A DNA stretch of 64,000 bases, taken from assembly GCA_029582155.1 (NCBI GenBank), contig CM055902.1:15016086-15080085 (forward strand), given 5' to 3'. Of the stretch, positions 16,063 through 61,300 are shown in pieces. The position numbers were made by a program, and so were the translations under genes. The notes under the pieces are model-generated. The model worked only from the letters and a program-made list of their open reading frames with translations, made no database searches and had not been told where the DNA came from. Origin of the DNA: Panopea generosa. Lineage: Eukaryota > Mollusca > Bivalvia > Adapedonta > Hiatellidae. Numbering within the stretch: the stretch's first letter is position 1; the number at the start of each line of letters is the position of its first letter.

Positions 16063-17088
16063 ACGGATAACTGGCACGCAGAAACGAGTTTTTTGTTTAA
16101 GCATTGAATCAATCGTTATTGTTATTTTGTGGTTACGGGTTGTTTAATACTGTGATTTAATGTTATGATAAGTATTGTTAATTGTTAAGTAGAGTGGTAT
16201 TGCTTAAGTAGAGTTTATTAGTTACAAGAATTTAATTTTCCCGTATTCAAGTTTATATTTAAGTACGAAAAACACATTACGATATATGCATCTATTAAAT
16301 ATTTTCTTATTTGATATGAGCGTTTGATATATATAATAATAATAATTTTGATTGAACAAGATGAAAAATTAATAGAATGAAAAAATAGTTTAAAAACTAT
16401 TATGAAATAAGAACTAGCATACGTATAGATAGCAGTATACGAATAGATAACTGTATAAAAAATGTTAAAATATTATAATAGAAAAAAATGTCATACGTTT
16501 AGATACCAATCAAAATGATTTAAAGTTAAAACAATTTACAATCAGAAATTATTGCTGAATCTTATTTGAGTTTATACTGTCTTAAGCGACTGGGTTTCTA
16601 TGAGAATGTTTCGATTTGTAAGGATATAATTACTAACTTTATAGCAGGAATAATTATGTCATATCAAAATTGAAATCACACCAGGAAATACCAGAGAAAT
16701 AAGTTATGTATCAGTGATTGGCATATCTTCTGTTTGACGAGAATTTAATTGTTGTTTTATTACTGCCAATTAACGTTTTTTCAGGCCTGGGCATAAGTGA
16801 TATAAGTGTAATTAAAATTACCTGATTACAGTTCAAGACTTCAATAAAATAAGAAGTTATATAGAATAGAGAAAAATATATTTGTTAATATATATTTTAT
16901 CATGAACAAGGGAGGAATGTTACATTATGGTGTATTCAGCGAAGGCTAACCATGTTTTTACTTATACATTTGACAGGCTAATGGAGATAATTTATAGCCT
17001 TAGTTTTAACATGTTGTATAGTTGACAGGTAGTTGTGTGGTATGATGGGAAAGTGGTTATGAGCCTTCATGATTAAGAAATTGACAAA
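16063..17088. other. AT-rich stretch before the retroelement fossil
   Basis: No coding signal. It may include worn 5' parts of the element, but no repeat matching its 3' flank was found. Confidence 0.35.
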
Positions 17089-19440
17089 TTGGGATGTAGC
17101 AATGAATTGACCAATTATAGATTAGTTTTTTATTCAGTCAGGATTGCAGTGGATTTGATAGGGCCAATTGCACCTATATTAGAAAAGGGGAATCGATACA
17201 TACTAACTGTAGTCGGTTATGCATCCAAGTGTCCTGAAGCAATTGCGATGCCAAGGATCGAGACAGAACGAGTGGCTGAAGCTCTACTAAATGTGTTTTT
17301 GAGAGTAGGCTTTACATCCGAGATATTAAGTGATAGAAGTACTCAATTTGCATCAGAATGATGGGAGAAGTGTGCAGACTGGTGTCACTTAAACAGTTGT
17401 TCACCACTCCATGCAATCCCAGATGTAATAGTTTGTGTGAACGAATGAACGGGGTTTTGAAAAGTATGCTGAATGAGTTGTGTCAAGAAAACCCGAAAGA
17501 CTGCGATAGATACTATCAGCAGTATTGGTTGCTTATAGAGAAATTCCCCAAGCAATCACAGGTTTTCACCGTTTGAACTATTGTATGGCTGAACAGTTAG
17601 AGGTCCCATGCAAGTTTTGAAAGAGCTATGAACAGATGAGTGTGAGATACTTGAAACAAGAAAGACGTTCCAATATGTGTAAGACCTAAGACATAAGTTG
17701 GAAGAGACTTGCAAAGTAGCTAGAGAAAGTTTGAACAAAGCGCACAGAAAGAGTACAAACATCACTTTGACAAGAAGGCACGAAACCGAAGTCTGAAGCA
17801 AGGTGATAAAGTTTTAATTTTTTACCAACAAATTATGATAAGCTGTTGCTCCAATGGAAAAGGCCTTTTGTAGTCATGTATGTGGTAAACAAGATGGATT
17901 ATAAGGTGAAAGTAAATGAAAAGGTTGGAACATACATGTACCACATAAACTTACTTAAGAAGTATGAGTAGAGAAAAGTAGCGGCCACAGTTTCAGTTAT
18001 AGAGGTATATGTGAATAGATGTTGTAGATGATGAGCATTTGTTGGAATTGGTAGAGAGTACGTGGAAAGTAACATAACGAGATGTTCAGATATGTGAGAA
18101 CTTGACACCGGAGCAGAGATCGCAAGTGCTTGAACTATTGCAGGACTATCAGGATAGTTTCACTGCAGTTCCTGGAACGAAAAGTTTAGATGAGAATAAG
18201 ATTAGTAAGACAATACATCATAACATATGCCAAGAGGTCTGAGATAGATGAAGAATTCGAAACCATGTTAAATTTTGGTGTCATAGAGTCGACTGTCTCA
18301 GACTATAATTCTCCGTGTTTGTTAGTCAAAAAGAAGGGCAATACAAACCGATTTTGTAATGATTATTGTGGTTTGAACATGGTTACAAAGTTCGACACTG
18401 AACCTATGGGTTATGTTGAAGACGTTTTGTCAAAGTTAGAAGGAGATAAATATCTTACCAAGATAGACTTGAGTAAAGGATATTGGCAAATACTTGTTGA
18501 AGAAAAGTCAAGACACCATCAGTTCGAAAGATGCCTTTCGATTAATTCTGATTAATTCTGGAGCTACATTTAATAGGATGATGACAAAATTATTGTCAGG
18601 CTCCAAAAGTGCAAATAACTATGTTGACGAAATACTTGGACATACGAAAACATCATTTTGAAATGTTAAAAGATCGGTTTTCGAGAGTTCGTGATGCAGG
18701 TCTGACCATACGGCTATCCAATTTTGTTATTGGAAACTCAGATATGGCATTCAAAGGGCACGTAGTCGGAAATGGCATGGTTATGGTGGAAAATGACAAG
18801 CTTGACAATATCAGATTGGCTGAACCCCCCCCCCGTTCCCCCCCCACCCCCCCCCCCCCCCCCCCAAATCGAAGAAACAATTAGAGCATTTCTTTGGTTG
18901 GCAGGCTATTATAAAAAAACATTCCATCATTTTCGACTGTTGCGACACCTCTAACAGACATACAAAAAAGGCCAGCCAAACAAAGTTATCTGGAAGCCTG
19001 ACCATGAACGATCGTTCCATACGTGAAATGACCTGTTAACGCAACGTCCAATATTGCGCTTACCAGACTTAAATAGACCGTTCTTACAGCAAAGCGATGC
19101 TTCTGGCAGCGGTGTTGGAGCTGCTTTATTGCAGCAGTTTGATAATGGCATGTTTCCTATCGCAAATACAAGTAAAAAATTGTTGCAAAGGGAGATGAAC
19201 TACTCTTTACTGAACGCGAATGCTTACGGATTGTGTTCGGAGTGAAGAAGTTTCAGAAGTACTTGTATGAAAGAGTTTATTCTTTAGACTGACCATGCAC
19301 CATTTTCATATATTCAGAAATGCAAAAATGAGAGTGGTAGAATCATACGTTGGGCATTATTTTTACAGAATTATAGATTAAAAAACGAAGCGATCAAGGG
19401 TTCAGACAATGTGTGTGCAGATTATTTAAGCAGACAGTGA
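17089..19440 (+). mobile_element. Fossil Ty3-type LTR retroelement pol region, Gmr1-like domain order
   Basis: Parts in order: integrase core (about 17.09-17.6 kb, recognisable by VDLIGPI and the F.SE..SD..TQF region), integrase C-terminal part (to about 17.95 kb), reverse transcriptase (about 18.19-18.9 kb, with TKIDLSKGYWQI) and RNase H (about 19.05-19.44 kb, with SDASGSGVGAALLQ). Ordinary Ty3 elements place integrase last; integrase first is known from the Gmr1 group of animals. No gag or protease was recognised. It is broken in several places and looks old. It is not a host gene. Confidence 0.8.
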
Positions 19441-25756: not shown

Positions 25757-27147
25757 ATGACATTATAGACTCACTAATAGTATTATACACTCGTGAGTAG
25801 TATTATAGTCTCACTAATAGTATTATACACTCGTGAGTAGTATTATAGAATCACTAATAGTATTAAACACTTGTGAGTAGTATTATAGACTCACTAATTG
25901 TATTATACACTCGTGAGTAGTATTATAGACTCAATAATAGTATTATACACTCGTGAGTAGTATTATAGACTCACTAATAGTATTATACACTCGTGATTAG
26001 TATTATAGACTCAATAATAGTATTATACACTCGTTAGTAATATTATAGACTAACTAATAGTATAATACACTCGTGATTAGTATTATAGACTCAATAATAG
26101 TATTATACACCCGTTAGTAATATTATAGACTAACTAATAGTATAATACACTCTTGAGAGGTATTATAGACTCACTAATAGTATTATACACTCTTGAGGAG
26201 TATTATAGACTCACTAATAGTATTATACACTCATGCGTAGTATCATAGACTCACTAATAGTATTATACACTCATGAGTAGTATTATAGACTCACTAATAG
26301 TATTATACACTCTTAAGTAGTATTGTAGACTCACTTATATTATTATACACTCATGAGTAGTATTATAGACTCACTAATAGTATTATACACTCGTGAGTAG
26401 TATTATAGACTCACTAATAGTATTATACACTCGTGAATAACATTATAGACTCACTAATAGTATTTTACACTCGTGAGTAGTATTATAGACTCACTAATAG
26501 TATTATACACTCATGAGTAGTATTATAGAGTCACTAATAGTATTATACACTCGTGAGTAATATTATAGACTCACTAATAGTATTATACACTCTTGAGTAG
26601 TATTATAGACTCACTAATAGTATTATACATTCTTGAGTAGTATTATACACTTACTTATAGTATTATACACTCATGAGTAGTATTATAGAGTCACTAATAG
26701 TATTATACACTCGTGGGTAATATTAAAGACTCACTAATAGTATTATACACTCTTGAGTAGTATTATAGACTCACTAATAGTATTATACATTCTTGAGTAG
26801 TATTATACACTCACTTATAGTATTATACATTCATGCGTAGTATCATAGACTCACTAATAGTTTTATACCCTCTTGAGTAGTATCATAGACTCACTAATAG
26901 TATTATACACTCGTGAGTAGTTTTATAGACTCACTAATAGTATTATACACTCATGAGTAGTATTATAGACTCACTAATAGTATTATACACTCTTGAGTAG
27001 TATTATAGACTCACTAATAGTATTATACACTCGTGAGTATTATTATTGACTCACTAATAGAATTATACACACGTGAGTAGTATTATAGACTCACTAATAG
27101 TATTATACACTTATGAGTAGTATTATAGATTAACTAATAATATTATA
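25757..27147. repeat. 40 bp minisatellite, about 35 copies
   Basis: Unit tattatagactcactaatag + tattatacactcgtgagtag, that is, two related 20 bp halves. Copies differ by point changes at a few favoured sites (tcg/tca/tct before tgag). Not a CRISPR array, since there are no unique spacers. Confidence 0.95.
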
Positions 27148-27346
27148 CTAACACGAAGTGCCATTCTCTAAAGGAACTCAAGTTTTAAAGTTTAAAACGT
27201 TTTTGTTTCAAACAAATACCGTTGGGCTATAATGTGACATGACAAACTTATTAAATATAATCTTTTAATTGTATAGTAAGCACACAGAACCACTTAATGA
27301 CATAGCAAACACACAATTCATTGACAACATAGCAAACACAAATAAT

Positions 27347-30089: not shown

Positions 30090-33000
30090 CTGAAATGTAA
30101 TGTAAAAAATGGATTACTGGGCAGGTCTATCTACGACACACAACAGCATGTATAAAGATGTCAACACAGTGATTGATAAATTCACCTGATTGTTTTGTTG
30201 TTGTTTTTTCACATATAATTATTCATAGATTCTGTCAAATTAAGCAAGTATCAACATATATTTTAGATGTCCTACTTTATTAGCCAATAGAATCTCTCAG
30301 ATTTTTCAAAATAGAACATTTTATTTTACATGAAACGTTACATGTATGAACGTCAGTAGATGTGACCTACCTCCTCAGCGAATGAAATTGCACCAGGAAC
30401 GAGAGTAGATCAACATCGAAACCGGTTAGAATTGATACGCTAGTAGAAAATTCCATGAGCATTACAAGTAGATATATATGTATAATCTTGTTTGTATATT
30501 TTAATTTTTCTCACTTAACACCATATTATAAATCAATTCTAATGTTAGTTTTATTTTAATTTGCCTCACATACATATTTTTGTACTTTGGTTCGCTTGCA
30601 GAAAAAGAATTAATTTGCAATAACAAATAAATGTCAAATCTATAGACAATATACTAGCCTTTAGAACAAGCTCCAGCCCCACCGTCAATAAAACCGGATA
30701 TACATACGCAAATCTTTGTATTTACGTCACATTCAGAATTGATATCACTCCTAACACACAGAGTTTCATCATCAGAACAGGCCGAACCCAGCGTTGCTGA
30801 AAATAATAATTTGAGCCATCCATGACTATTTACTTCAAAATTCATTGATTTCAATGTACTAGAATGTACTAGATGTTGTTAATTGAGCACAATAAATAGA
30901 TATGGAATTTATTTTCCATAACATATTTGTAATTATTAACTTGAAGCAGTAATTGATACTTAGATTTGATCGTTTTTTTTTTTTTCAAACATAGCATGTT
31001 CTTCCCTCGTTGGCATACCATTATAAAATGAATATACTTCCTTTTTTAACATATTCTCTTATAAACGAAACAAAATTACATTTGTTATGAATAGAACATA
31101 TATATATATAGTAGATACACGTGGTGTAAAAAGCTACACGTTAAGTTATACGCCACACATGGTGGAATAAGCAATACGTGGTAAATACGTCACACGTTGT
31201 GTGAAAAGCTACACGTTGAGTAATATGTCACACATGGTGGAATAAGCAATACGTGGTGAAATAGTCACGCGTAGAAAAGTAAACTTAACGTGGGGAAATA
31301 CGTCAGATATTGTTGGATGAGCTACACATTAAGTAAAAGACGTCACATGTGCTTGAATAGGCTACACGTGGTACAATACGTCAGACAAAATGGGTATATT
31401 ACTCTCATTTCAAGAAAATAATCATAATTATTGTATCACTACCAGAAATAGCAAATTGATCCATACCTGTACAAGTCACCCCGTCTCCAGTGTATCCAGT
31501 CTTACAGGCACATGTAAACGACCCAGCCGTATTTGTACATGCGGCATTTGTGTCACAGTTGTTGTCATTTGCCTTATCGCATTCGTCATCATCTAATCAA
31601 ACAAGATTAGTGTTTAAATTGTTGTGACATCTTGTATACATGTTTAACATATACAACAATCACATATTTTATTGTTATTGACTAGCAAATTGGTAAGGTG
31701 GGTACATCATTTTCACTTCTGGTAACGCGTCAATTGCAGTATGTCCAAAAAGTGTCAGTTTTAGAAACAATAAAATGAGTGCTTACCTGTACAAGTCATC
31801 CCGTCTCCAGTGTATCCAGTGTTGCAGGCACATGTAAACGACCCTACCGTATTAGTACAAGCAGCATTTGTGTCACAGCTGTTGTCAGCAGTATTAGCAC
31901 ATTCGTCAGCATCTAATCAAACAAGAAACAAAATGTACTTGAGGTTGTTAATTAAGCACAATAAATAGATATGAAATTTATTTTCCATAACATATTTGTC
32001 ATTGTAAACTTGAAGCAGTAAGTGATACTAAGAGTTGTCGTGTTGTTTTTTTTTTTTTTTGTTTTTTCAAACATAACATGTTTTTCCCCCGTTGGCACAC
32101 CATTATAAATTATATATACTTTCTATTTTAACATATGCTCTTATAAACGAAACATAATTACATTTGTAATGTATAGATTACATATATATAGTAGATACAC
32201 GTGGTGCAAAAAGTTACAAGTTGAGTTATACGCCACACATAGTGGAATAAGCAATACGTGGTGAAATACGTCACACGTTGTGTGAAAAGCTATATGTTGA
32301 GTAATACGTCACACATGATGGAATAAGCAATACGTGGTGAATAGTCACACGTGGAGAAATAAGCTTAACGTGGGGAAATACGCCACATGTTGTCGGATGA
32401 GCTACACATTAAGTAATACGTCTCATATGGTTGAATAAGCTACACGTGGTACAATACGTCAGACAAAATGGGTATATCACTCTCATTTCAAGAAAAAATC
32501 ATAATTATTGTATCACTACCAGAATTAGCAAATTGATCCTTACCTGTACAAGTCACCCCGTCTCCAGTGTATCCAGTGTTACAGGCACATGTAAACGACC
32601 CAGCCGTATTTGTACATGTGGCATTTGTGTCACAGTTGTTGTCATTTGCCTTATCGCATTCGTCATCATCTAATCAAACAAGATTAGTGTTTATATTGTT
32701 GTGACATCTTGTATACATGTTTAACATATACAACAATATATGTTTTATTGTTATTGACTAGCAAATTGGTAAGGTGGGTATATCATTTTCACTTCTGGTA
32801 ACGCGTCAATTGCAGTTTGTCCAAAAAGTGTCAGTTTTAGAAACAAGAAAATGAGTGCTTACCTGTACAAGTCATTCCGTCTCCAGTGTATCCAGTGTTG
32901 CAGGCACATGTAAACGACCCTACCGTATTAGTACAAGCAGCATTTGTGTCACAGCTGTTGTCAGCAGTATTAGCACATTCGTTAGCATCTAATCAAAAAA

Positions 33001-34297
33001 GAAAAAAATGTACTTGAGGTTGTTAATTAAGCACAATAAATAGATATGAAATTTATTTTCCATAACATATTTGTAATTGTAAACTTGAAGCAGTAAGTGA
33101 TACTAAGAGTTGTCGTGTTGTCGTGTTTGATTTTTTTTCAAACATAGCATGTTCTTCCCCCGTTGGCACACCATTATAAAATATATATACTTCCAATTTT
33201 AACATATGCTCTTATAAACGAAATATAATTACATTTGTAATGTATAGATTACATATATATAGTAGATACACGTGGTGCAAAAAGCTACAGGTTGAGTTAT
33301 ACGCCACACATAGTGGAATAAGCAATACGTGGTGAAATACGTCACACGTTGTGTGAAAAGCTACATGTTGAGTAATACGTCACACATGATGGAATAAGCA
33401 ATACATGGTGAAATAGTCACACGTGGAGAAATAAGCTTAACGTGGGGAAATACGCCACATGTTGTCTGATGAGCTACACATTAAGTTATACGTCACATGA
33501 GGTTGAATAAGCTACACGTGGTACAATACGTCAGACAAAATGGGTATATCACTCTCATTTCAAGAAAATAATCATAATTATTGTATCACTACCAGAATAA
33601 GCAAATTGATCCATACCTGTACAAGTCACCCCGTCTCCAGTGTATCCAGTCTTACAGGCACATGTAAACGACCCAGCCGTATTTGTACATGCGGCATTTG
33701 TGTCACAGTTGTTGTCATTTGCCTTATCGCATTCGTCATCATCTAATCAAACAAGATTAGTGTTTAAATTGTTGTGACATCTTGTATACATGTTTAACAT
33801 ATACAACAATCACATATTTTATTGTTATTGACTAGCAAATTGGTAAGGTGGGTACATCATTCTCACTTCTGGAAACGCATCAATTGCAGTATGTCCAAAA
33901 AGTGTCAGTTTTAGAAACAAAAAAATAATTGCTTACCTGTACAAGTCATCCCGTCTCCAGTGTATCCAGTGTTGCAGGCACATGTAAACGACCCTACCGT
34001 ATTAGTACAAGCAGCATTTGTGTCACAGTTGTTGTCAGCAGTATTAGCACATTCGTTAGCATCTAATCAAACAAGAAAAAATGTACTTGAGGTTGTTAAT
34101 TGAGCACAATAAATAAATATGAAATTTATTTTCCATAACAACTTGAAGCAGTAAGTGATACTTAGAATTTGTCGTGTTTTTTTTTATTCAAACATAGCAT
34201 GTTCTTCCCCCGTTGGCACACCATTATAAAATGAATATGCTTCCTTTTTTAACATATGCTCTTATAAACGAAATATAATTACATTTGTAATGTATAG

Positions 34298-34374
<77 letters not shown>

Positions 34375-37300
34375 GATACACGTGGTGCAAAAAGCTACAC
34401 GTTGAGTAATACGTCACACATGATGGAATAAGCAATACGTGGTGAAATAGTCACACGTGGAGAAATAAGCTTAACGTGGGGAAATACGCCACATGTTGTC
34501 GGATGAGCTACACATTAAGTTATACGTCACATGAGGTTGAATAAGCTACACGTGGTACAATACGTCAGACAAGACGGGTATATTACTCTCATTTCAAGAA
34601 AATAATCATAATTTTTGTATCACTACCAGAAATAGCAAATTGATCCTTACCTGTACAAGTCAACCCATCTCCAGTGTATCCAGTCTTACAGGCACATGTA
34701 AACGACCCAGCCGTATTTGTGCATGCGGCATTTGTGTCACAGTTGTTGTCATTTTCGTTATCGCATTCGTCATCATCTAATCAAACAAGATTAGTGTTTA
34801 AATTGTTGTGACATCTTGTATACATGTTTAACATATACAACAATCACATGTTTTATTGTTATTGACTAGCAAATTGGTAAGGTGGGTACACCATTCTCAC
34901 TTCTGGTAACGCGTCAATTGCAGTATGTCCAAAAAGTGTCAGTTTTAGAAACAAGAAAATGAATGCTTACCTGTACAAGTCATCCCGTCTCCAGTGTATC
35001 CAGTGTTGCAGGCACATGTAAACGACCCTACCGTATTTGTACATGCAGCATTTGTGTCACAGTTGTTGTCAGCAGTATTAGCACATTCATCAGCATCTAA
35101 TTAAACAAGAAAACAATGTTATATTGTTACGGCATCTAGAGTGTCTGAATACTGTTTAAAATATAACAAAAAGCTTGGCTGTGTATTATATCAAACTGAC
35201 GAGACGAGTACATTACTCTATTTTAAAGAAAAGAATCAAAAGCATGTCTGTAATTATTGCATCTCTTCTATTAATATAAAATTGATCCAAACCTGTACAA
35301 GTCACCCCGTCTCCAGTGTATCCAGCGTTGCAGGCACATGTAAACGACCCTGCCGTATTTGTACATGCAGCATTTGTACCACAGTTGTTGTCATTTGCAT
35401 TAGCGCATTCGTCATCATCTAATCAAGCAAGATAAATGTTTATATTATTACTTAACAAACACTTGTCATAATGATTGTTTACATTATTAAATATTTGAAG
35501 CTTTTTTTTTTTCACTCATAAAAATGACACTTATGAAAACAACCATGTCAGGTTCTGTTGCAGCCATACTAAAGACAATACAAATATACGACTGACCTTT
35601 CAGAAGAGGTCACCGTCTCCTGGAACGGTCAGTAGCAATTTCTCCACTTGGGAAATGAAATTATACTGGTAACTAGGTGCACCCAACTCTTCTTCTTTTC
35701 TCAAAATAGAGCCAAACCTGTGTTAGTGGTCACCTATATCAAACAACTACTTGTCTAAATCAGCGACATTTTCTATTTACCATTTGTATAATTTTAGATT
35801 TAATAGCGGTCAACTGATTTAAATGGTCAATTTTGCTGTTTCACTTGAATGGTTGCTTTAAACAGACTTGACTAATATCTCGTATCGCATTAAACGATGA
35901 AGCATCTTAATGTGTTTGTATTGTAAAAATAAAATATTGTTTTATATTGTTAATTCAGTAATACAAACCAAATTCATCAGGAGTTAAATCTTATTCTAAA
36001 TCAGGAAGCACATTACTAGCAGTGTGTCCATATGTATGTTTAAATTCTGGAAACAAAGCATATACTCTGACCTGTACAAGTCATTCCGTTCCCAGTATAT
36101 CCAGTATTACAGGCACATGCAAATGATCCTTCCGTATTTGTACATTTAGCATTTGTGTCACAGTTGTTGTCATCTGTACTAGCGCACTCGTCAGCATCTG
36201 ATCAAACACGGAAACCATTTATAAAGGAACCATTCCGAGGTAATGTTTAAATAATACAAAAACATTATGACTGCGTTTTATGTACACATCACTCTTATTC
36301 TAAGAAACACTGTATTAGCCCTATGTCCATATGGTATCAGTACTAGACAAAAATAATGCAAACTTACCTGAACAAGTCACCCCAGATCCAGTGTACCCAG
36401 TGTTACAGGCACATGTAAACGACCCTGCCGTATTTGTACAAGCAGCATTTGCACCGCAGTTGTTGTCATTTGCACTTGCACATTCATCTTCATCTAATCA
36501 AACAAGACAAATACCAATAGCGCAGTGGGATCTAGAATGCCGTAATAATGTTTAGAAACATACAAAAACAAAGTTCTGGTTGGACTTTAAATCAAATTGA
36601 CGAGACCGGTAACTTTCTCTCGTTTCAAGAAATATGCTAATTGCAGTATGTCCTAAAATGGAGATTTAAATTCACCTCAAATGGTGGATGGGTGACGCCA
36701 TGTTAATCAATTTAACTTCTTATATATAATTTATTGTAATACATCAATATATCAATATCCTGGAAACAATCTAATTCCTACGATACCGATACAATTAAAC
36801 GGGAATAAGTTACGTTTAACAGTTCATAAAGTATCCAGTACCGCAAAGGTTGCCCAGAATGTGTCAGATGCGAATATGACGGATATTGGCCCAGACACAG
36901 AAAAGAAAGCGGAGTGAGACATCAAGTTAAAATAAGCTTTATTTAAGATCCAGTGAAGTGAATGACGGTAATCAAAAAGAAATAAGAAAACAAGTATGCA
37001 TCCTATCAATTAACAGGTAAAAGGGAAATATGCTTGAAATACAGATACAGTTAAACAACTAGCAGACATGTGAGTTGCTACACTTTTTATCTATTCTTCT
37101 TTTCGTCATTGTTTTTGAGACTGTTGTTTCATACCTTGACGGTGATCTACACATATACTCGTTAAATATCCGGAGTTAAGAAATGTGAACCAAGAACAAA
37201 TATTTCAGTAGTTAAAACTTCAATCGTATTCGATATGTATTTTACAAGAAAGGCTTTCAAATAAAGATAGCGATGAATCATGGAAATCTTGACTGCGATG

Positions 37301-40300
37301 TATGTTGTAGTTGATACAAAGACTACAGTGCAGGTATAGGCTTTGGAATAAAAATGTTCATGCAATAACTGTACGGATATAATTACAGGTCGACCACAAG
37401 CTCTTGATTTACTAATGAATGGTTCAGTTTCAACTTATTTATTTTACTTCGATTGTGAAACAACCAAGGCAAATCACGTTCGAAGTCTTCCTGGTTAGAA
37501 CCAATACTAAGCATATGCGGAAGAGTGTCTTGCTCAAGGACACCGCACATAGCCGTTGCGGAGGATCGAACCCACAAACTTCCGATCATCGGTTCAGTGC
37601 TCTACCACTGGTTTACGCGCTCCAGTGGTTAAGATATAACAATCATCAATATATATTATCCTTATACCGAGAATGAAGCCTTAGACTTTTGTGAAAATTG
37701 AAAAAAGATAAATTGGGGGTGGGGGAGGCTTCAATACAGTTTTCACTATACCGTTATTGTCATCTGTATTTGGGCATTGCTCATCATCTTATCATACACA
37801 ATAAATTATTAATATGAAGTGGCATCTAGCATATGAAGATTATGTTTGAATTATTAAAAAATAACAACAATTTTAGTTGTGTTTTCTAACAAAGTAGCGA
37901 GATGATTCGATTACGGTCATTTCAAGAAATAAGTGTTTCTATAATTATAAAAGGTATCAATACCAGAAACAGAAATGTTATGCTTACCTGTACAAGTCAT
38001 CCCGTCTCCAGTGTATCCAGTGTCACAGGCACATGTAAACGACCCTGCCGTATTTGTACACACAGCATTTGCGTGACAGTTGTTGTCATTTGCATTAGCA
38101 CATTCGTCATTATCTAATGAAACAAATCGAATGGTTCAATTGAAAGGATATCAATATGCCTGAATATTGATTAACTGTTACAAATACATAGGTCTGGTAT
38201 TGTGTATATCAAATTTGCGAAACGGGTACAAAATTCTCATTTCTAATAATACTTGAATTACAGTGTGTTTATCATTATGGTATCACAAACAGAAACAGAA
38301 AATACAACTAACCTTCACAAGTCACCCCGTCTCCAGTGTAGCCAGTGTTACAGGCACATGTAAACGACCCTGCCGTATTTGTACACGCAGCATTTGCATG
38401 ACAGTTGTTGTTAGCTGTACTAGCACATTCGTCATTATCTAATCATACAATACAAATTGTTAAATTGAAGTGATATCAAGCATGTCTGAATGTTGTTTAA
38501 CTGTAACCAGAAACAAAAGTTTTGTTATATTTTATTTCAAATTGACGAGACGGGTACATCACTCTCATAAGCTCACATTTAAGGAAGCAAATAGAAGTGC
38601 AGTGTATCTATTATTATGGCATCAAGTATAGAAACAGAACATTCAACTTACCTGTACAAGTTATCCCGTCTCCAGTGTATCCAGTGTTACAGGCACATGT
38701 AAACGATCCTGCCGTATTTGTACACGCAGCATTTCCGTGACAGTTGTTGTTAGAAGTACTACTACATTCGTCATTATCTGATTAAACAATACAAACGGTA
38801 AAATAAAGCGATATCAAGCGTTTCTGAATATTGTTTGACTGTTACAAGAAACGCAGGATTTGTTATGTTTTATTTCAAATTGACGAGACGGGTACATCAC
38901 TGTCATAAACTCTCATTTAAAGAAACAAGTATAACAGCAGTGTGTCTGTCATTATGTCATCAATTGTATAAACAGAAAATACAACTTACCAGTACAAGTC
39001 ATCCCGTTTCCAGTGTATCCAGTGTTACAGGCACATGTAAACGATCCTGCCGTATTTGTACACGCAGCATTTGCGTGACAGTCGTTGTCATTTGCATTAG
39101 CGCATTCGTCTTTATCTAATGAAACAAATTAAATGGTCCTATTGAAGTGTAATGAATATTGTTTAAATCCTCATTAAACTTCCGAATTGCACACGTTTTG
39201 ATAATAACAAAAATGACTGTAATTAAACGTGTTGATCATATTGCTTAAACCATTCCTGTAGACATCTAGTGACTGGTTTAAAAAAAGCGAAAAAAATAGT
39301 TAACTTAAATCGAAATATATTTTTCTTAGACAAGCGGTCCGAACTTTTAACTTTTGTTTCCATTTTTGTAATTCCAGAATGTTGCTTTCCGACGGTACTT
39401 CCGATAGTGTTTGGAATTACATAAATGAATACTGCAGTGGTGATGTGCGAATTAAGACCGTTAGATAAGGGGTTCAATAACATGATTGGAAGTTATAGCT
39501 TCACTTAGTGTGTATCGTTATTGGGTTTCTTGTTTTAAATAAATATATTGATGTCTGCAATAAGACTGTATCGCATGCAGTATATTATTTAAACGCACTG
39601 AAAAACAATGAGTACTGAATACTAGTTTGGTTTAGTAACTCTTGGTCAGGATCCTCCCTTGCATATACGCGTTATACTATCTCACGCGCTATTACGTCAC
39701 AAATCACTTTATCGCAGTCAATACTGAAAGATTATCAGGGCGGTTTGCTTAGTATAGTTATTACAAAATAATTTAATGTTTAATTTTAAATGAAATAATT
39801 AGCTCTTGGGTTCCAGTTCATTTATGCACTGAGGGGAACAAAGGGGGTGTTCTTAAAAACTGTCTCACCGCAAGCGATTATTTAACGTTTAACAGTATCC
39901 CCTACAGTTCCCCATACTAAGTGAATTGATCATATATTACCGACCGACGCGTTTCTGAACAAGCTTTGTAACTCACCGTTTTCTGCCGAAGGTGTTTATC
40001 GGAAAGAGACGAACATTAATTTGTAAACAAAACCCATTCTTAATTATGTGCTTATAATGTGCTTTTTAATTTTTTTTCGTTTGCAAAATCTCTTAGTAAT
40101 CCAAAAAACATGTATTACATCATCTGGAAGAGTAAAACTAACTTAAATTAAAACTAAAAACGACCGTTTCGGAAGTTTAATAAGCATTTACCTGTTACAA
40201 AAACATGGGATTGGTATGTATTATATTAATTTGCGAAACGGGTACATTATTCTCATTTTTAGAAACACGTGAATTGCAGTCTGTCCATCATTTTGGTATC

Positions 40301-43300
40301 TCAAACAGAAACAGAAAATACATCTTACCTGTACAAGTTATCCCGTCTCCAGTGTATCCAGTGTTACATGCACATGCAAACGACCCTGCTGTATTTGTAC
40401 ACGCAGCATTTGCGTGACAGTTATTGTTAGCTGTACTAGTACATTCGTCATTATCTAATCAAAAAATACAAACGGTAAAATTGAAGCGATATTAAGCATG
40501 TCTTAATAGTGTTTCACTGTTACAAGAAACGCAGGTTTTGTTATTATATATTTCAAATTGAGGAGACGGATACATCATTCTCATTAATTCTCATTTAAAG
40601 AAACAAATATAGCTGCAGTGTATCTATCATTATGGCATCAATTGAAGAAACAGAAAATACAACTAACCTGTACAAGTCATCCCGTCTCCTGTGTATCCAG
40701 TGTTACAGGCACATGTAAACGACCCTGCCGTATTTGTACATGCAGCATTTGTGTCACAGTTGTTGTCATTTGCATTAGCACATTCGTCATTATCTAATCA
40801 AACAAGATAAATGCCTGGATTATGTTTAAATTTTACAAAAATTCAAGGTTGGATATGTTTTATATTAAATTGTCAAGAAACACATTAACTGCATTGCGTC
40901 TATCATTATTGTATTATAATTATATAATCATGATAACACATATGACATGTAAACGACCCTGCCGTATTTGTACACGCAGCATTTGTGTGACAGTTGTCAT
41001 TTGCATTAGCACATTCGTCATTATCTAATGAAACAAAACAATAGGTACATTGAAGCGAAATTAAAAATGCCTGAATATTGTTTAACTTTTTCAAAGAACA
41101 GAGGTTTGATATGTTTTATATCAAAATGTCGAGACTGGTACGTTACTCTCATTTAAAGCAACACATATAACTGCAGTTTGTCTATCAATATGGCATCATT
41201 TACAGAAATAGAAAAATACAAGTTACCTGTACAAGTAACCCCGTCTCCATTGTATCCAGTGTCACAGGCACATGTAAACGACCCTGCCGTATTTGTACAT
41301 GCAGCATTTGTGTCACAGTTGTTGTCATTTGCATTAGCACATTCGTCATTATCTAATGAAACAAAACAATAGGTACATTGAAGCGAAATTAAAAATGCCT
41401 GAATATTATTAAACTTTTTCAAAGAACAGAGGTTTGATATGTTTTATATCAAAATGTCGAAACTGGTACATTACTCTCATTTAAACCAACACATATAACT
41501 GCAGTTTGTCTATCAATATGGCATCATTTACAGAAATAGAAAATACAAGTTACCTGTACAAGTAACCCCGTCTCCATTGTATCCAGTGTCACAGGCACAT
41601 GTAAACGACCCTGCCGTATTTGTACATGCAGCATTTGTGTGACAGTTGTTGTCATTTGCATTAGCACATTCGTCATTATCTAATCAAACAAGATAAATGC
41701 CTGGATTATGTTTAACTTTTACAAAAATTCAAGGTTGGATATGTTTTATATTAAACTGTCAAGAAACACATTAACTGCATTGTGTCTATCATTATTGTAT
41801 TATAATTATATAATCATTATAACACATATTACATGTAAACAACCCTGTCGTATTTGTACACGCAGCATTTGTGTGACAGTTGTCATTTGCATTAGCACAT
41901 TCGTCATTATCTAATGAAACAAAACAATAGGTACATTGAATCGAAATTTAAAATGCCTGAATACTGTTTAACTTTTTCAAAGAACAGAGGTTTGTTATGT
42001 TTTATATCAAAATGTCGAGACTGGTACATTACTCTCATTTAAAGCAACACATATAATTGCAATTTGTCTATCAATATGGCATCATTTACAGAAAAAGAAA
42101 ATACAAGTTACCTGTACAAGTTACCCCGTCTCCATTGTATCCAGTGTCACAGACACATGTAAACGACCCTGCCGTATTTGTACATGCAGCATTTGTGTGA
42201 CAGTTGTTGTCATTTGCATTAGCACATTCGTCATTATCTAATCAAACAAGATAAATGCCTGGATTATGTTTAAATTTTACAAAAATTCAAGGTTGGATAT
42301 GTTTTATATTAAACTGTCAAGAAACACATTAACTGCATTGTGTCTATCATTATTGTATTATAATTATATAATCATTATAACACATATTACATGTAAACAA
42401 TCCTGCCGTATTTGTACACGCAGCATTTGTGTGACAGTTGTCATTTGCATTAGCACATTCGTCATTATCTAATGAAACAAAACAATAGGTACATTGAATC
42501 GAAATTTAAAATGCCTGAATACTGTTTAACTTTTTCAAAGAACAGAGGTTTGTTATGTTTTATATCAAAATGTCGAGACTGGTACATTACTCTCATTTAA
42601 AGCAACACATATAATTGCAATTTGTCTATCAATATGGCATCATTTACAGAAAAAGAAAATACAAGTTACCTGTACAAGTTACCCCGTCTCCATTGTATCC
42701 AGTGTCACAGACACATGTAAACGACCCTGCCGTATTTGTACATGCAGCATTTGTGTCACAGTTGTTGTCATTTGCATTAGCACATTCGTCATTATCTAAT
42801 CAAACAAGATAAATGCCTGGATTATGTTTAAATTTTACAAAAATTCAAGGTTGGATATGTTTTATATTAAATTGTCAAGAAACACATTAACTGCATTGCG
42901 TCTATCATTATTGTATTATAATTATATAATCATGATAACACATATGACATGTAAACGACCCTGCCGTATTTGTACACGCAGCATTTGTGTGAAAGTTGTC
43001 ATTTGCATTAGCACATTCGTCATTATCTAATGAAACAAAACAATAGGTACATTGAAGCGAAATTAAAAATGCCTGAATATTGTTTAACTTTTTCAAAGAA
43101 CAGAGGTTTGATATGTTTTATATCAAAATGTCGAGACTGGTACGTTACTCTCATTTAAAGCAACACATATAACTGCAGTTTGTCTATCAATATAGCATCA
43201 TTTACAGAAATAGAAAAATACAAGTTACCTGTACAAGTAACCCCGTCTCCATTGTATCCAGTGTCACAGGCACATGTAAACGACCCTGCCGTATTTGTAC

Positions 43301-46300
43301 ACGCAGCATTTGTGTCACAGTTGTTGTCATTTGCATTAGCACATTCGTCATTATCTAATGAAACAAAACAATAGGTACATTGAAGCGAAATTAAAAATGC
43401 CTGAATATTATTAAACTTTTTCAAAGAACAGAGGTTTGATATGTTTTATATCAAAATGTCGAAACTGGTACATTACTCTCATTTAAACCAACACATATCA
43501 CTGCAGTTTGTCTATCAATATGGCATCATTTACAGAAATAGAAAATACAAGTTACCTGTACAAGTAACCCCGTCTCCATTGTATCCAGTGTCACAGGCAC
43601 ATGTAAACGACCCTGCCGTATTTGTACATGCAGCATTTGTGTGACAGTTGTTGTCATTTGCATTAGCACATTCGTCATTATCTAATCAAACAAGATAAAT
43701 GCCTGGATTATGTTTAACTTTTACAAAAATTCAAGGTTGGATATGTTTTATATTAAACTGTCAAGAAACACATTAACTGCATTGTGTCTATCATTATTGT
43801 ATTATAATTATATAATCATTATAACACATATTACATGTAAACAACCCTGCCGTATTTGTACACGCAGCATTTGTGTGACAGTTGTCATTTGCATTAGCAC
43901 ATTCGTCATTATCTAATGAAACAAAACAATAGGTACATTGAATCGAAATTTAAAATGCCTGAATACTGTTTAACTTTTTCAAAGAACAGAGGTTTGTTAT
44001 GTTTTATATCAAAATGTCGAGACTGGTACATTACTCTCATTTAAAGCAACACATATAATTGCAATTTGTCTATCAATATGGCATCATTTACAGAAAAAGA
44101 AAATACAAGTTACCTGTACAAGTTACCCCGTCTCCATTGTATCCAGTGTCACAGACACATCTAAACGACCCTGCCGTATTTGTACATGCAGCATTTGTGT
44201 CACAGTTGTTGTCATTTGCATTAGCACATTCGTCATTATCTAATCAAACAAGATAAATGCCTGGATTATGTTTAAATTTCACAAAAATTCAAGGTTGGAT
44301 ATGTTTTATATTAAATTGTCAAGAAACACATTAACTGCATTGCGTCTATCATTATTGTATTATAATTATATAATCATGATAACACATATGACATGTAAAC
44401 GACCCTGCCGTATTTGTACACGCAGCATTTGTGTGACAGTTGTCATTTGCATTAGCACATTCGTCATTATCTAATGAAACAAAACAATAGGTACATTGAA
44501 GCGAAATTAAAAATGCCTGAATATTGTTTAACTTTTTCAAAGAACAGAGGTTTGATATGTTTTATATCAAAATGTCGAGACTGGTACGTTACTCTCATTT
44601 AAAGCAACACATATAACTGCAGTTTGTCTATCAATATGGCATCATTTACAGAAATAGAAAAATACAAGTTACCTGTACAAGTAACCCCGTCTCCATTGTA
44701 TCCAGTGTCACAGGCACATGTAAACGACCCTGCCGTATTTGTACATGCAGCATTTGTGTCACAGTTGTTGTCATTTGCATTAGCACATTCGTCATTATCT
44801 AATGAAACAAAACAATAGGTACATTGAAGCGAAATTAAAAATGCCTGAATATTATTAAACTTTTTCAAAGAACAGAGGTTTGATATGTTTTATATCAAAA
44901 TGTCGAAACTGGTACATTACTCTCATTTAAACCAACACATATAACTGCAGTTTGTCTATCAATATGGCATCATTTACAGAAATAGAAAATACAAGTTACC
45001 TGTACAAGTAACCCCGTCTCCATTGTATCCAGTGTCACAGGCACATGTAAACGACCCTGCCGTATTTGTACATGCAGCATTTGTGTGACAGTTGTTGTCA
45101 TTTGCATTAGCACATTCGTCATTATCTAATCAAACAAGATAAATGCCTGGATTATGTTTAACTTTTACAAAAATTCAAGGTTGGATATGTTTTATATTAA
45201 ACTGTCAAGAAACACATTAACTGCATTGTGTCTATCATTATTGTATTATAATTATATAATCATTATAACACATATTACATGTAAACAACCCTGCCGTATT
45301 TGTACACGCAGCATTTGTGTGACAGTTGTCATTTGCATTAGCACATTCGTCATTATCTAATGAAACAAAACAATAGGTACATTGAATCGAAATTTAAAAT
45401 GCCTGAATACTGTTTAACTTTTTCAAAGAACAGAGGTTTGTTATGTTTTATATCAAAATGTCGAGACTGGTACATTACTCTCATTTAAAGCAAGACATAT
45501 AATTGCAATTTGTCTATCAATATGGCATCATTTACAGAAAAAGAAAATACAAGTTACCTGTACAAGTTACCCCGTCTCCATTGTATCCAGTGTCACAGAC
45601 ACATGTAAACGACCCTGCCGTATTTGTACATGCAGCATTTGTGTCACAGTTGTTGTCATTTGCATTAGCACATTCGTCATTATCTAATCAAACAAGATAA
45701 ATGCCTGGATTATGTTTAAATTTTACAAAAATTCAAGGTTGGATATGTTTTATATTAAACTGTCAAGAAACACATTAACTGCATTGTGTCTATCATTATT
45801 GTATTATAATTATATAATCATTATAACACATATTACATGTAAACAACCCTGCCGTATTTGTACACGCAGCATTTGTGTGACAGTTGTCATTTGCATTAGC
45901 ACATTCGTCATTATCTAATGAAACAAAACAATAGGTACATTGAATCGAAATTTAAAATGCCTGAATACTGTTTAACTTTTTCAAAGAACAGAGGTTTGTT
46001 ATGTTTTATATCAAAATGTCGAGACTGGTACATTACTCTCATTTAAAGCAACACATATAATTGCAATTTGTCTATCAATATGGCATCATTTACAGAAAAA
46101 GAAAATACAAGTTACCTGTACAAGTTACCCCGTCTCCATTGTATCCAGTGTCACAGACACATGTAAACGACCCTGCCGTATTTGTACATGCAGCATTTGT
46201 GTCACAGTTGTTGTCATTTGCATTAGCACATTCGTCATTATCTAATCAAACAAGATAAATGCCTGGATTATGTTTAAATTTTACAAAAATTCAAGGTTGG

Positions 46301-49300
46301 ATATGTTTTATATTAAATTGTCAAGAAACACATTAACTGCATTGCGTCTATCATTATTGTATTATAATTATATAATCATGATAACACATATGACATGTAA
46401 ACGACCCTGCCGTATTTGTACACGCAGCATTTGTGTGACAGTTGTCATTTGCATTAGCACATTCGTCATTATCTAATGAAACAAAACAATAGGTACATTG
46501 AAGCGAAATTAAAAATGCCTGAATATTGTTTAACTTTTTCAAAGAACAGAGGTTTGATATGTTTTATATCAAAATGTCGAGACTGGTACGTTACTCTCAT
46601 TTAAAGCAACACATATAACTGCAGTTTGTCTATCAATATAGCATCATTTACAGAAATAGAAAAATACAAGTTACCTGTACAAGTAACCCCGTCTCCATTG
46701 TATCCAGTGTCACAGGCACATGTAAACGACCCTGCCGTATTTGTACACGCAGCATTTGTGTCACAGTCGTTGTCATTTGCATTAGCACATTCGTCATTAT
46801 CTAATGAAACAAAACAATAGGTACATTGAAGCGAAATTAAAAATGCCTGAATATTATTAAACTTTTTCAAAGAACAGAGGTTTGATATGTTTTATATCAA
46901 AATGTCGAAACTGGTACATTACTCTCATTTAAACCAACACATATAACTGCAGTTTGTCTATCAATATGGCATCATTTACAGAAATAGAAAATACAAGTTA
47001 CCTGTACAAGTAACCCCGTCTCCATTGTATCCAGTGTCACAGGCACATGTAAACGACCCTGCCGTATTTGTACATGCAGCATTTGTGTGACAGTTGTTGT
47101 CATTTGCATTAGCACATTCGTCATTATCTAATCAAACAAGATAAATGCCTGGATTATGTTTAACTTTTACAAAAATTCAAAGTTGGATATGTTTTATATT
47201 AAACTGTCAAGAAACACATTAACTGCATTGTGTCTATCATTATTGTATTATAATTATATAATCATTATAACACATATTACATGTAAACAACCCTGCCGTA
47301 TTTGTACACGCAGCATTTGTGTGACAGTTGTCATTTGCATTAGCACATTCGTCATTATCTAATGAAACAAAACAATAGGTACATTGAATCGAAATTTAAA
47401 ATGCCTGAATACTGTTTAACTTTTTCAAAGAGCAGAGGTTTGTTATGTTTTATATCAAAATGTCGAGACTGGTACATTACTCTCATTTAAAGCAACACAT
47501 ATAATTGCAATTTGTCTATCAATATAGCATCATTTACAGAAAAAGAAAATACAAGTTACCTGTACAAGTTACCCCGTCTCCATTGTATCCAGTGTCACAG
47601 ACACATGTAAACGACCCTGCCGTATTTGTACATGCAGCATTTGTGTCACAGTTGTTGTCATTTGCATTAGCACATTCGTCATTATCTAATCAAACAAAAC
47701 AAATAGGTAAGTATATAATCATTATAACACATATTACCGTACAGATAGTTTAGCATGCCTCCTCATTAACATACCCGTCCTTGAAATTTGGCGAAAACAA
47801 TATAGATTTTACAAGCAATACGAAAAAATAGTTGTTTAAATCTAGCATTTAATTGAAACTATTTCATAGATGCATGTATATAATAATAATTGTCATGGAA
47901 ATTGTAAATATAAGCTCGAATTTAAATGTTTATGGTTTTTAAATACAAAATCATTTTGGCAGAGTGTCAATTGTTTTTCAATTTTTCAATGAAAATATAG
48001 CTTAATTCCAATATTTTGATATTTTGTATGGATAAATTTTGCTTTAAATCTCACAATATAGTCTATGATGCATATTTTTATGACGAAAGAAAGCTTTACT
48101 GCGTAATTTGAGAAAAAAATAACTTAATATATGCCATCGTTAAATAAACTGCCTTTGCAAATTTTTTTTATACGAAATGAGCATATTTTTATAAATATTA
48201 AGATTTCTATTATATTTTATTTTCAAGTTAAATTGCTATGTGCAATTATTTTATACCAGTATGTATATTTCATATATTGAACATAATATAAGAGACTAAT
48301 ATCAGGCGTATCCGTAAATGAGTGTGCCACCCGAAATAGGGTCAGTTGTAGTATAATAATATATACACTGGATCGTCTCGACATAGTTGCTTCCCTTTGT
48401 GCGCGGAATTGGCGTGCATGAAAAACTATTGAAACGTCGATTTCTAAAGTTGTTGCATTTTTTCCTGTGGATAGAATTTTACGAAACTTCCCAGTATTTA
48501 AGTTTAATGTCTGTTTATGCAATATGAGAAATTAAAAAAAAAACATGTTACGCTACAGATTCTTTGGAATTACCTCCTCCTTGCAATTTGGTGAATGATA
48601 CAGATTTTACAGGCAATGTGAAAAAACATTTTAAATTATTTACATCTAGATTTAATTAAAACTTGTACATAGATGAATGCATTTAATAATAATTTTCATT
48701 TAAATGTACATCTTTCATTTAACTGTTAAAGTATGCCATCTTTAAATAAACTGCAGTTGCAAATTTAACGTTTTTATACCAAATGGGCATTTGCATATAA
48801 ATATTAAGATTTCTATTATATTTTATATTTAGATTTAATTGCAAATAATTTTTATACCAGTAAGATATTTCATATATTGAACACAATATAAGCCACTCAT
48901 TTCAGGCATATCCATAAATGAGTGTGACATGCGAAATAGGGTCAGTTGTAGTATAAAAATAGTGTCTGGTCTCGATAAAGTTGCTTCCCTTTGTGCGCAG
49001 AATTGATGCTCATTAAAAACTTCCCCTCAAAATCTGATCACTAAGCTCCTCGCAGCACGACTGCGTGTGTGTTTTCAGCTATTGAAAGTGACAAAGTCTT
49101 TTAGGAAACAGTCTATTTTTAGCCCCATCACACTGCACACGAGTTAAAACATGCGTGCATTATGTAATAATTGAAATATATGGGAGATTAAACGCGTATT
49201 TAATTAGTTTTTTAATGATAAATAGTAACAAAAAGACTACAAAAGATAGAAAATGTAAAATCCTAAATGATCATCACTACTCATCAAGTGGCAGATGACC

Positions 49301-58300: not shown

Positions 58301-61300
58301 TGCGTGAGCTCGTGTACTGGTAAACCTTCGGGGATCCCTTGGAAAGAGTGGTAAGGTTAACTCATTGTCTGTTAGCCCTCGATGGCATAAACTAACGACC
58401 AGTCTAATACGACTGTGCCATTTTTGTTGATGTAAAGTGTGCTATTAGGTAAATATGTCGAATGTAACAAACAAATGTATACGTTCACGATACACCTTGA
58501 AACATGTGTGGACCACGTGACCAAGTGGTAAAACATCGGTCCTATGATCGGATGGTATTGGGTTCGATTCTCAGCTACGACTATGTGTGGTGTCCTTGAA
58601 CAAGAAACTTTTTCAGAATATGCCTAATACTCGTTCTACCCAGGAAGACTTGTCTCTATGCGTCCCATTGATTTGTAATAACTTGTTTCACAATTGTAGT
58701 AAAACAAAACAGTTTAAACGAAATAACCAATTCATCATCAACTTCTTAATATTATCAGTTAATTAAATTAATGATTATGATATGTACGCATTGATATTGC
58801 ACGGGAATTCTAGAATTTAAGAAAAAAACTACTTTCGCCAGCTTATCAAAAGAACGCGATGTCTGTCGATTCGGAAATACCATGTCCATTCGCGGTGCCT
58901 TCCACTGAAGTTAGAAATCCAACTAATATGTCTTGTAGAGACGCAATAGAAATAGATATTGATTAGTTTATTTCCATCAGAAAATAAAAAAAAACACCTT
59001 ACAAAATATCCCACGTACGCTTTATGACAACAAACGATAGCCCAGGTTGATAGACAATGTACCAACTAATCATCGGAATTATCCACACTTGGTCAAGCAG
59101 AATGTTCAATGCATAGGATAATGGCATTGGAATGTTCTAAGATATATGAAAATGATAAAGATAATACGTGTAGAAGATCTTTATATTTCCCTCCCAGATT
59201 TGATTTAGTTATATACAAGATATTAAATAGTAGCTATGTGTAATTCTAAATGACATGCTATTGTGGTATTTTTATTTTTCAGGTGGTTTGTTTATGTGTG
59301 TACTTTACTATATGAATGCATTATGAAAACATAGATAGGACTTAAATACAGAATAAAATATGTGGGAATAAATATGATGGAAATACACCAAATGTATAAT
59401 CATTTGTTATCTCAGGTTGTCAGTATTTTATTGAAAGTTTAATACCATTTTTAACAAATTTCATGTTATAAATGGCATATTTAGTTTTGATATTGGGGAA
59501 AGACCACGGAATGAATCCGAGAACCACTGTGTTTCTGCAGCTAACTAGCAAATTTTCTCACATAAATATTTTAAAGCGAGCGGGACTCGAGTCTACGACA
59601 TTTGCTGTGAGAGGTAATCGTGACACGGCTCCTTACACAGAAAACGATTCCCACTCAAATTGTAAGTAAATCGATCTCTTGAATGCCATAAAAAGTCAAT
59701 GCGATGCAATGGAAAATAATATTAGCATAATTGTATGTTTTGATTGGTAAAATAAATTATTTAGTCATTTGGCAGGGTTGTCATCGGATGCCCATATACT
59801 GTCCTGCTGTCTAGTTGACACACCGGGAACTATGTAAGAACGTACCGAAAGCAAGGTATTTTGACAAACAATTGCATGTTATGTCTTCTTTTCTTCAAAT
59901 ATATGAAAAGCTTGTTGAAAGTACGAATAAAAAATGACAATAAAAAATGTCTGTTTTTCAGATTATAATTATTCTTAAGTTTAGATTAGGCATTACTACA
60001 TATATATTACAGATAAGAAAATCCTTTTTTATAAGGTTACATGAATTTAATCCAATGGAAATAAAGTCCTTATTCACTTCCGTTCTAGCATATTTATAAA
60101 AACCTTTATAAAGTCAATAATGCTTTTTTGTATGTGATACAACAACGGACTGTGGACACATATTTGTGTAGATTTTATGTAATTATTTCCTAAAACAATC
60201 TATGGGAAATTAATTAGTGACCCACAACCTGTGTGTTCGATTGAAATGCGTCACATTTTATTCCACGATTATCTTTTTTTCACATATACTTAAGGCCAGA
60301 TGTCTTGCACATTTCAAATATTTTATTGGTATAATTTCAATGCAAATGTTATAAAGAGTGAGTCCCTTTAATGTTTTGGTGAATAAAAGTCGAAAGTCTT
60401 TACAATTATGATGAAGTAACCGTAAAAAGATAAATATTCCTGATACACTGACCTGCACATGGTGTTGAGCTATCTCCAGTATAACCAGTTTCACAGGCAC
60501 ATTTTAAATCTGTACAAACTTCGTTAGCTTCACAGTCACCATCTTCAGCGCACACCGCATCAACAGCAGCTGTAAGTTAATCTCGATTTTACAAACTGCA
60601 TGACCGTACTATTGATATTTCTTCTAACACTGACGAAAGAGCAATATAAAAAGAGGATAGTTTATAACTAACTTCAAGTTGTTATTTAACAGATATTCAA
60701 ACGTCGCCGAATAGCAACTGATAAGGGATCCCTTGGATGGTTGGATGGTTGGTTGGTTGGTTGGTTGTACGGTGTTTAGAGTTGCTTTCAACCATTTCTT
60801 TCTGTCATATCGCGAGGGCGAACATGCCTAGAACTATCCACTAAATGCTGAGTGCCTAGCGAGGAAGCTTCTAGAACTATTTTTAAGTGTCCGGTTTGAC
60901 AACGCCGGGAATCGAACCCACGAGCTTTCACATGCGTAGCGGACGCTCTATCACAAGACCATCGCTGCAGTATGGATCCCTTGTAAGCACAGAACGAGTA
61001 CCGAAAATAATTTGGAAAATAATAGAGTAGGTTATATATCGAGTACTTTAATAATGGGAAATGACATATGCAACACCCCTCACATACCAATGTTATCGAC
61101 CGAAGCACTATTCTATTTTGAACAATGCTGAATCAGAATACAACAAAAAATGAGTCATGACCTTTTACACTGATTTCTATTGAATATGTTTTATTAACCA
61201 ATCAAGTGATAATGTATATCGCACAAATCTCAATATACATATTCTTGTGTACCGAACAAAAATGTCCAAATATTTTACCTGGTACAGAATTTTCATCCTA

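Follow-up and report, generated by a model that had tools for sequence, protein, structure and literature searches.

How does a gene for a modular extracellular protein come to be organised like a satellite? The question is raised by an epidermal growth factor (EGF) gene of the bivalve Panopea generosa, which we analysed in a window of 64,000 nucleotides (C9:15016086-15080085; contig CM055902.1) from an assembly of 1.47 Gb in 39 contigs (GCA_029582155.1). Positions given without a contig name are those of the window. An initial annotation, made from the letters of the window, had described a higher-order organisation inside a coding gene, with 886-bp and 558-bp blocks combined into a 3,446-bp super-unit. 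This organisation is borne out by the spacing of truncated exons and by a self-match at 3,446 bp, and the locus is probably a coding higher-order repeat (HOR) that grew by duplication first of an exon, then of a block and then of a super-unit.

The gene contains 31 full EGF exons on the minus strand, running from 47685 to 31467, as found by a motif search of the window; a looser motif again gave a count of 31. All 31 are open, 126 bp long and flanked by AG and GT, and both of their junctions are in phase 1 (1-1). Since one EGF module corresponds to one exon with both splice sites in phase 1, exons can be gained or lost in frame. A whole exon with its intron is repeated in frame in all 14 full exons of the array and in all 31 of the gene, which is the pattern of a coding variable number tandem repeat (VNTR). 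A generic non-coding satellite was ruled out by these 31 open, in-phase exons. Four array modules in a row scored 116.9 bits against PF07645 (EGF_CA; cut-off, 27) and 142.6 bits against PF12947 (EGF_3; cut-off, 28.5), and the modules possess the six cysteines and the D-x-D/N-E-C start of calcium-binding EGF domains. The nearest solved relatives of three array modules are EGF modules of uromodulin and NELL2 (E values, 6.2e-42 and 2.1e-29), a similarity at the level of the module from which no orthology is claimed. By the nature of such modules, the product is a putatively secreted or cell-surface protein, formed as a long chain of EGF modules.

The young array lies at 40692-47697 on the minus strand and comprises about 2.03 copies of the super-unit, each made of blocks of 886, 558, 558, 886, and 558 bp, as defined by self-match and by the spacing of ten half-exons (psi). 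With boundaries set by convention, super-unit copy 1 occupies 40822-44267 and copy 2 occupies 44268-47713, the match stopping at 47697. The half-exons start, on the minus strand, at 41024, 41910, 42468, 43026, 43912, 44470, 45356, 45914, 46472, and 47358, and they are the ten anchors for which a step series of 886, 558, 558, 886, 558, 886, 558, 558, and 886 bp had been reported; the series is exact. A 558-bp block consists of one full exon and its intron followed by psi and its intron, and an 886-bp block is the same with one extra 328-bp unit of exon and intron. As claimed for the blocks, coding exons are present in every one of them and all are open. The 14 full array exons (41227-47685, minus strand; 126 bp, phase 1-1) have their 5' ends at 47685, 47127, 46800, 46241, 45683, 45125, 44798, 44239, 43681, 43354, 42795, 42237, 41679, and 41352. 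At the gene-downstream edge, the exon at 40668-40793 (minus strand) is array-type in its first part and resembles the flanking exons in its second. Tandem Repeats Finder, run with a longest period of 500, detected only four 328-bp pairs in the array and missed the higher levels.

Was the composite unit doubled as a whole, as had been proposed? The step series alone is weak evidence of a doubling, because four long and five short steps can be arranged in 126 ways, of which 6 are 5-periodic and 9 show some period up to 5; it is the base-level match that carries the claim. At an offset of 3,446, positions 40692-44251 match positions 44138-47697 with 15 differences over 3,560 bp (99.58%) and no indel. 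Three of the 15 lie beyond the low-coordinate edge of the interval first annotated; the other 12 fall in the 3,446-bp register, with six in introns (2,174 bp), three in psi (390 bp), and three in full exons (882 bp). The best segments at other offsets matched less well (98.83 and 98.90% at 2002; 96.91, 98.67, and 97.95% at 1444). Complete block pairs one super-unit apart showed 0 (B1/B6), 3 (B2/B7), 1 (B3/B8), and 4 (B4/B9) differences, so that the 3,446 register is favored by three of the four pairs, with B4/B9 neutral; other non-identical pairs of 886-bp blocks have four differences each, and B4/B9 is no closer. B4 and B9 do share two bases that are absent from B1 and B6. The offset match and the block pairs thus support the doubling of the composite unit. 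Between 886-bp and 558-bp blocks there were 16 to 24 differences over the 558 shared columns (mean, 3.58%; 20 pairs), compared with 0.35% (12/3,446) between super-unit copies, a divergence pattern characteristic of HORs. The blocks likewise follow one another with a period of five, as a composite unit of fixed order, in a super-unit present in only about 2.03 copies.

A divergence of 0.35% is of a size that alleles commonly show in many animals. This low value, together with the mere 2.03 copies, is what would be expected if each haplotype carried one super-unit and the assembler had laid the two alleles in tandem. Such a merge is improbable: an assembly of 1.47 Gb in 39 contigs suggests long reads, which would be expected to span 3.4 kb, and a merge can explain neither the 558/886 levels, 3.6% apart with nine recurrences, nor the nested periods in other EGF arrays of the genome. 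Two haplotypes end to end could account for the last doubling, but not for the lower levels. Differences private to single blocks had been taken in the initial annotation as evidence against a pure assembly copy. Two of these, NDCDT at 46.7 kb and SFRC at 44.1 kb, are present as described, and the supposed F2/F3 mosaic at 42.1 kb is present but amounts to the single base 42199. The argument holds for an exact assembly copy, which is ruled out by the 12 differences per 3,446 bp; it fails for haplotypes laid in tandem, which would look alike at 0.35%.

The same private differences had been read as a sign of ongoing exchange and conversion, and the two processes fare differently. Twenty sites separate the 886 and 558 block types. 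Four of them, where the psi-intron begins, agree with the type of the psi upstream (blocks B2 and B7), which means only that the natural boundary of the unit lies slightly further along. The remaining 16 include 15 that hold in all nine blocks; the exception is base 42199, which in one block is of the other type. No conversion tracts were seen at these 16 informative sites in the nine blocks, and the lone base fits a point mutation as well as a conversion. Concerted evolution, in which ongoing gene conversion keeps the blocks alike, draws on two observations, namely, that the exon at 42112-42237 carries one base of the other block type and that B1 and B6 are identical over 886 bp. Set against a single violation of this kind, we regard it as unlikely, though a shade less so than the haplotype merge, and the conversion claimed from the mosaic is poorly supported. 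Unequal exchange of whole blocks explains the pattern.

What, then, are the half-exons that mark each block? Each psi is an EGF exon broken just before the codon of the fourth cysteine (ten copies at 40947-47358, minus strand). When ended at the GT past the break, each measures 78 bp, with the acceptor of the real exons, the first three of the six cysteines, and a weak donor; besides being broken, psi is also one codon short of a full exon. Using a matrix built from the 11 distinct EGF-exon donors of the gene, the psi donor scored 2.19 in the 558 type and 0.95 in the 886 type, compared with 7.26 for the lowest real donor when left out of the matrix. Two psi units were scanned up to the next acceptor, and no other GT scored above 1.83. 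These scores suggest that psi is most likely skipped in splicing. Could it nevertheless work as a 78-bp in-frame mini-exon that adds a 26-residue half-EGF between full modules? All ten copies are free of stops and divisible by 3, and the acceptor is that of a real exon. However, the donor is weak, and weaker still in the 886 type, three cysteines are an odd number, and in one of the ten copies a cysteine has changed to phenylalanine. A working mini-exon is thus very unlikely.

The origin of psi is recorded at its broken end. Upstream of the first array exon, the DNA consists of an element resembling a miniature inverted-repeat transposable element (MITE), at 47726-48438 on the minus strand. 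The element measures 847 to 858 bp between its terminal inverted repeats (TIRs) in six copies and here lacks about its last 100 bp. A second, internally deleted copy lies head to tail with the first at 48439-49021 on the same strand. Thirty-nine similar copies were found elsewhere among the best 40 scored of 2,527 candidates; six of seven element copies had aligned TIRs of 21 to 45 bp, giving the spans of 847 to 858 bp, and in the seventh copy examined (L015) no aligned TIRs were found. Terminal inverted repeats and many short dispersed copies are the hallmarks of a MITE, and TTAA-like ends were seen by eye. The broken edge of the element begins a 26-bp word (47712-47737, minus strand), and the same word follows the break in psi. 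In the 1.47-Gb assembly, the word has seven exact matches, which are six psi junctions and the element flank; the other four psi junctions carry it with two mismatches. Allowing up to three mismatches gave 15 hits, 11 of them at the locus and four elsewhere with two or three mismatches, and five hits for a reversed control. The longest word common to the flank and the psi-intron is 26 bp, compared with at most 14 bp in 500 shuffles of the flank. That the word might belong to every dispersed copy of the element was ruled out, as all seven exact matches are at this locus. Because the word is confined to the psi junctions and the flank, every psi descends from one rearrangement here, and because 12 bases of the word lie within the element match, the word is read as a join between the middle of an exon and the edge of the element. 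The initial annotation had missed that its anchors are truncated exons with a transposon-edge junction. We interpret psi, from its shared junction, as the copied scar of one founding rearrangement.

One possibility within the same model, to which we give somewhat less than even weight, is that psi does not represent a tandem-duplication junction but arose as an exon deletion repaired with filler copied from the element edge. The identity between flank and psi-intron stops at either end of the 26-bp word, the intron past the word resumes in rough register with a normal EGF intron, and the present flank is without the stretch that follows the word in the psi-intron, all of which would fit filler repair. 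By itself, however, filler repair gives no account of why the array starts beside that same edge.

To what state does the array trace back? Two paralogues on the same contig (C9:14290246-14294027 and 14396184-14400012) possess the same exon order with two EGF exons each, on the evidence of a motif scan of 7 kb and a protein search that scored the best 150 of 1,788 candidates; additional relatives of the end exons are represented by their positions alone. These two paralogues with only two EGF exons had also escaped the initial annotation. Within the gene, an older tandem array of four two-exon EGF units lies at 30879-35096 (minus strand; 1,034, 1,074, and 1,076 bp, with the fourth cut by our choice at 1,034 bp). 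The units are 92.6 to 96.4% identical with gap columns left out and keep the order of the exon pair of the paralogues. Given two-exon paralogues and older paired units, the starting point of the tract seems to have been about two modules, with pairs added at first and psi-bearing blocks later, as far as two paralogues can tell. The introns of the older units at 31117-31272, 32197-32422, 33268-33533, and 34378-34567 contain related minisatellites with a period of 19, 38, or 75 bp, and it seems that these small repeats were copied together with the exons. Nested periods are also present in other EGF-exon arrays of the genome. On C5, a period of 951 bp comprises four exons spaced at about 250 bp, and a period of 1,022 bp comprises units of about 256 bp; a period of about 1,037 bp occurs on C14. 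Closer by, the neighboring EGF region at C9:14976086-14996085 (L023 and L024) has a repeat offset of 6.65 to 6.72 kb and two exons with the same peptide. A related EGF cluster at C9:15108602-15111068 (L019 and L020) has a 1,015-bp period and contains many stretches of about 120 bp that match one of the introns of the present array, several of them spaced at about 179 bp.

Selection on the tract was assessed from mean dN/dS over pairs of exons. The mean was 0.28 over the 55 pairs formed by the 11 older exons and 0.44 over the 91 pairs formed by the 14 array exons. Constraint on the older exons is likely from these values. A number of observations weigh against growth by exon, block, and super-unit as we propose it. 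For the six exons at 38.0-40.8 kb, mean dN/dS was 0.57 when they were paired with one another (15 pairs) and 0.80 when they were paired with array exons (84 pairs); it was 0.65 in one class of older pair units. All three exon differences between super-units change an amino acid, and the rates in exons (3/882), psi (3/390), and introns (6/2,174) between super-units did not differ significantly, so that recent selection on the new copies finds no support; nor did divergence between block types differ significantly between exon (3/126) and intron (11/201; P = 0.26). B4/B9, one of the four block pairs, gives the 3,446 register no preference, and the evidence for the last doubling comes from a single assembly. 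At the junction, the intron that resumes after the word is equally compatible with a filled deletion and with a duplication junction, and the flank could have received the word from psi.

Outside the array, five single EGF exons from the motif search lie gene-downstream of it (37988-40454, minus strand). The EGF tract is preceded by an EB/EGF-like exon (60451-60567, minus strand), all of whose Pfam matches fall below cut-off and whose relatives stand directly before the two EGF exons in the two paralogues. It is followed by a cysteine-rich exon (30657-30797, minus strand) with a weak Pfam match (E value, 0.066; below cut-off), whose relatives come after the EGF exons in both. The end of this last exon reads AAAG|GC, compared with AAAG|GT in both two-EGF paralogues, which implies either use of a GC donor or termination of the frame at that point. 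Elsewhere in the window, two open stretches at 17077-18552 (plus strand) resemble an integrase core (PF00665; E value, 6e-4) and a reverse transcriptase (PF00078; E value, 7.5e-4); both matches are below the Pfam cut-off and in separate frames or pieces, and the region is probably a retrotransposon remnant. A 40-bp minisatellite occupies 25762-27148 (34.7 copies, 90% matches).

How does the locus compare with known systems? The long homologous repeats of CR1 form a higher-order repeat of extracellular modules with size alleles; those modules are SCRs (short consensus repeats), and the units are much larger than here. The hornerin repeat lies within one exon, whereas the exons here are separated by introns. 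Exon-carrying HORs and whole-exon VNTRs are already known from NBPF and LPA kringle IV-2 (KIV-2). In the parts of the source drawn on, the NBPF/Olduvai 3mer HOR of human chromosome 1 lies in genes and has a monomer of about 1.6 kb with two exons, and HOR copies in NBPF20 are about 1.6% apart, compared with about 18% for monomers (PMC9584774). As far as that account goes, both loci are tandem intragenic HORs whose copies are far closer than their monomers; unlike NBPF, the present locus has EGF exons, block sizes one exon unit apart, an HOR present in roughly two copies, and, in every block, a half-exon that carries an element-edge junction. The same source, in the portion used, describes a quartic HOR in hornerin with nested coding periodicity on a 39-bp base unit (PMC9584774), which resembles our array in having nested periodicity inside a coding gene. 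The LPA KIV-2 coding VNTR is described, in the sections consulted, as a 5.6-kb unit with two short exons, present in 1 to about 40 units per allele (PMC11462820). On that description it is similar in that whole exons and introns are repeated, adding extracellular domains; it differs in that those sections do not mention a super-unit, and in that copy number varies there, while here there is one assembly. Literature searches on tandem exon duplication with EGF in molluscs or bivalves gave nothing on point, and searches with transposable element or pseudoexon gave no such gene among the matches listed; absence from print is not claimed.

Taken in order, the proposed history would run as follows. 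A founding rearrangement would have broken one EGF exon, yielding psi joined to the word at the element edge. Unequal homologous exchange between copies out of alignment would then have amplified the unit of full exon plus psi (558 bp). Gain or loss of one 328-bp exon unit in some blocks would have given the 886- and 558-bp types, and a five-block stretch of 3,446 bp would have been doubled in the last step. Psi would be absent from the mRNA for want of a donor; left out in this way, it would allow the array to add 14 full modules, for 31 in the gene compared with 2 in each examined paralogue. The outcome would be a longer, calcium-stiffened EGF stalk of near-identical modules, the number of which may vary between individuals. 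More tentatively, and with odds that we place below those of filler repair, the locus may be actively length-variable, such that individuals would differ by one or two modules or by a seven-module super-unit, with stalk length freely recombining and the psi scar serving as a neutral tag of exchange.

The half-exon scar is the most informative feature of the locus, as it marks one founding break. It also has a practical consequence, in that gene predictors may be trapped into annotating the ten half-exons, whose acceptors are good, as exons. The locus offers a record at three levels, exon, block, and super-unit, of one way in which a protein built of extracellular modules can become longer, and the two-exon paralogues probably resemble the state from which it began. 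Should the number of copies prove to differ within the population, the locus would provide a parallel to LPA KIV-2 and NBPF in an animal that is not a primate.

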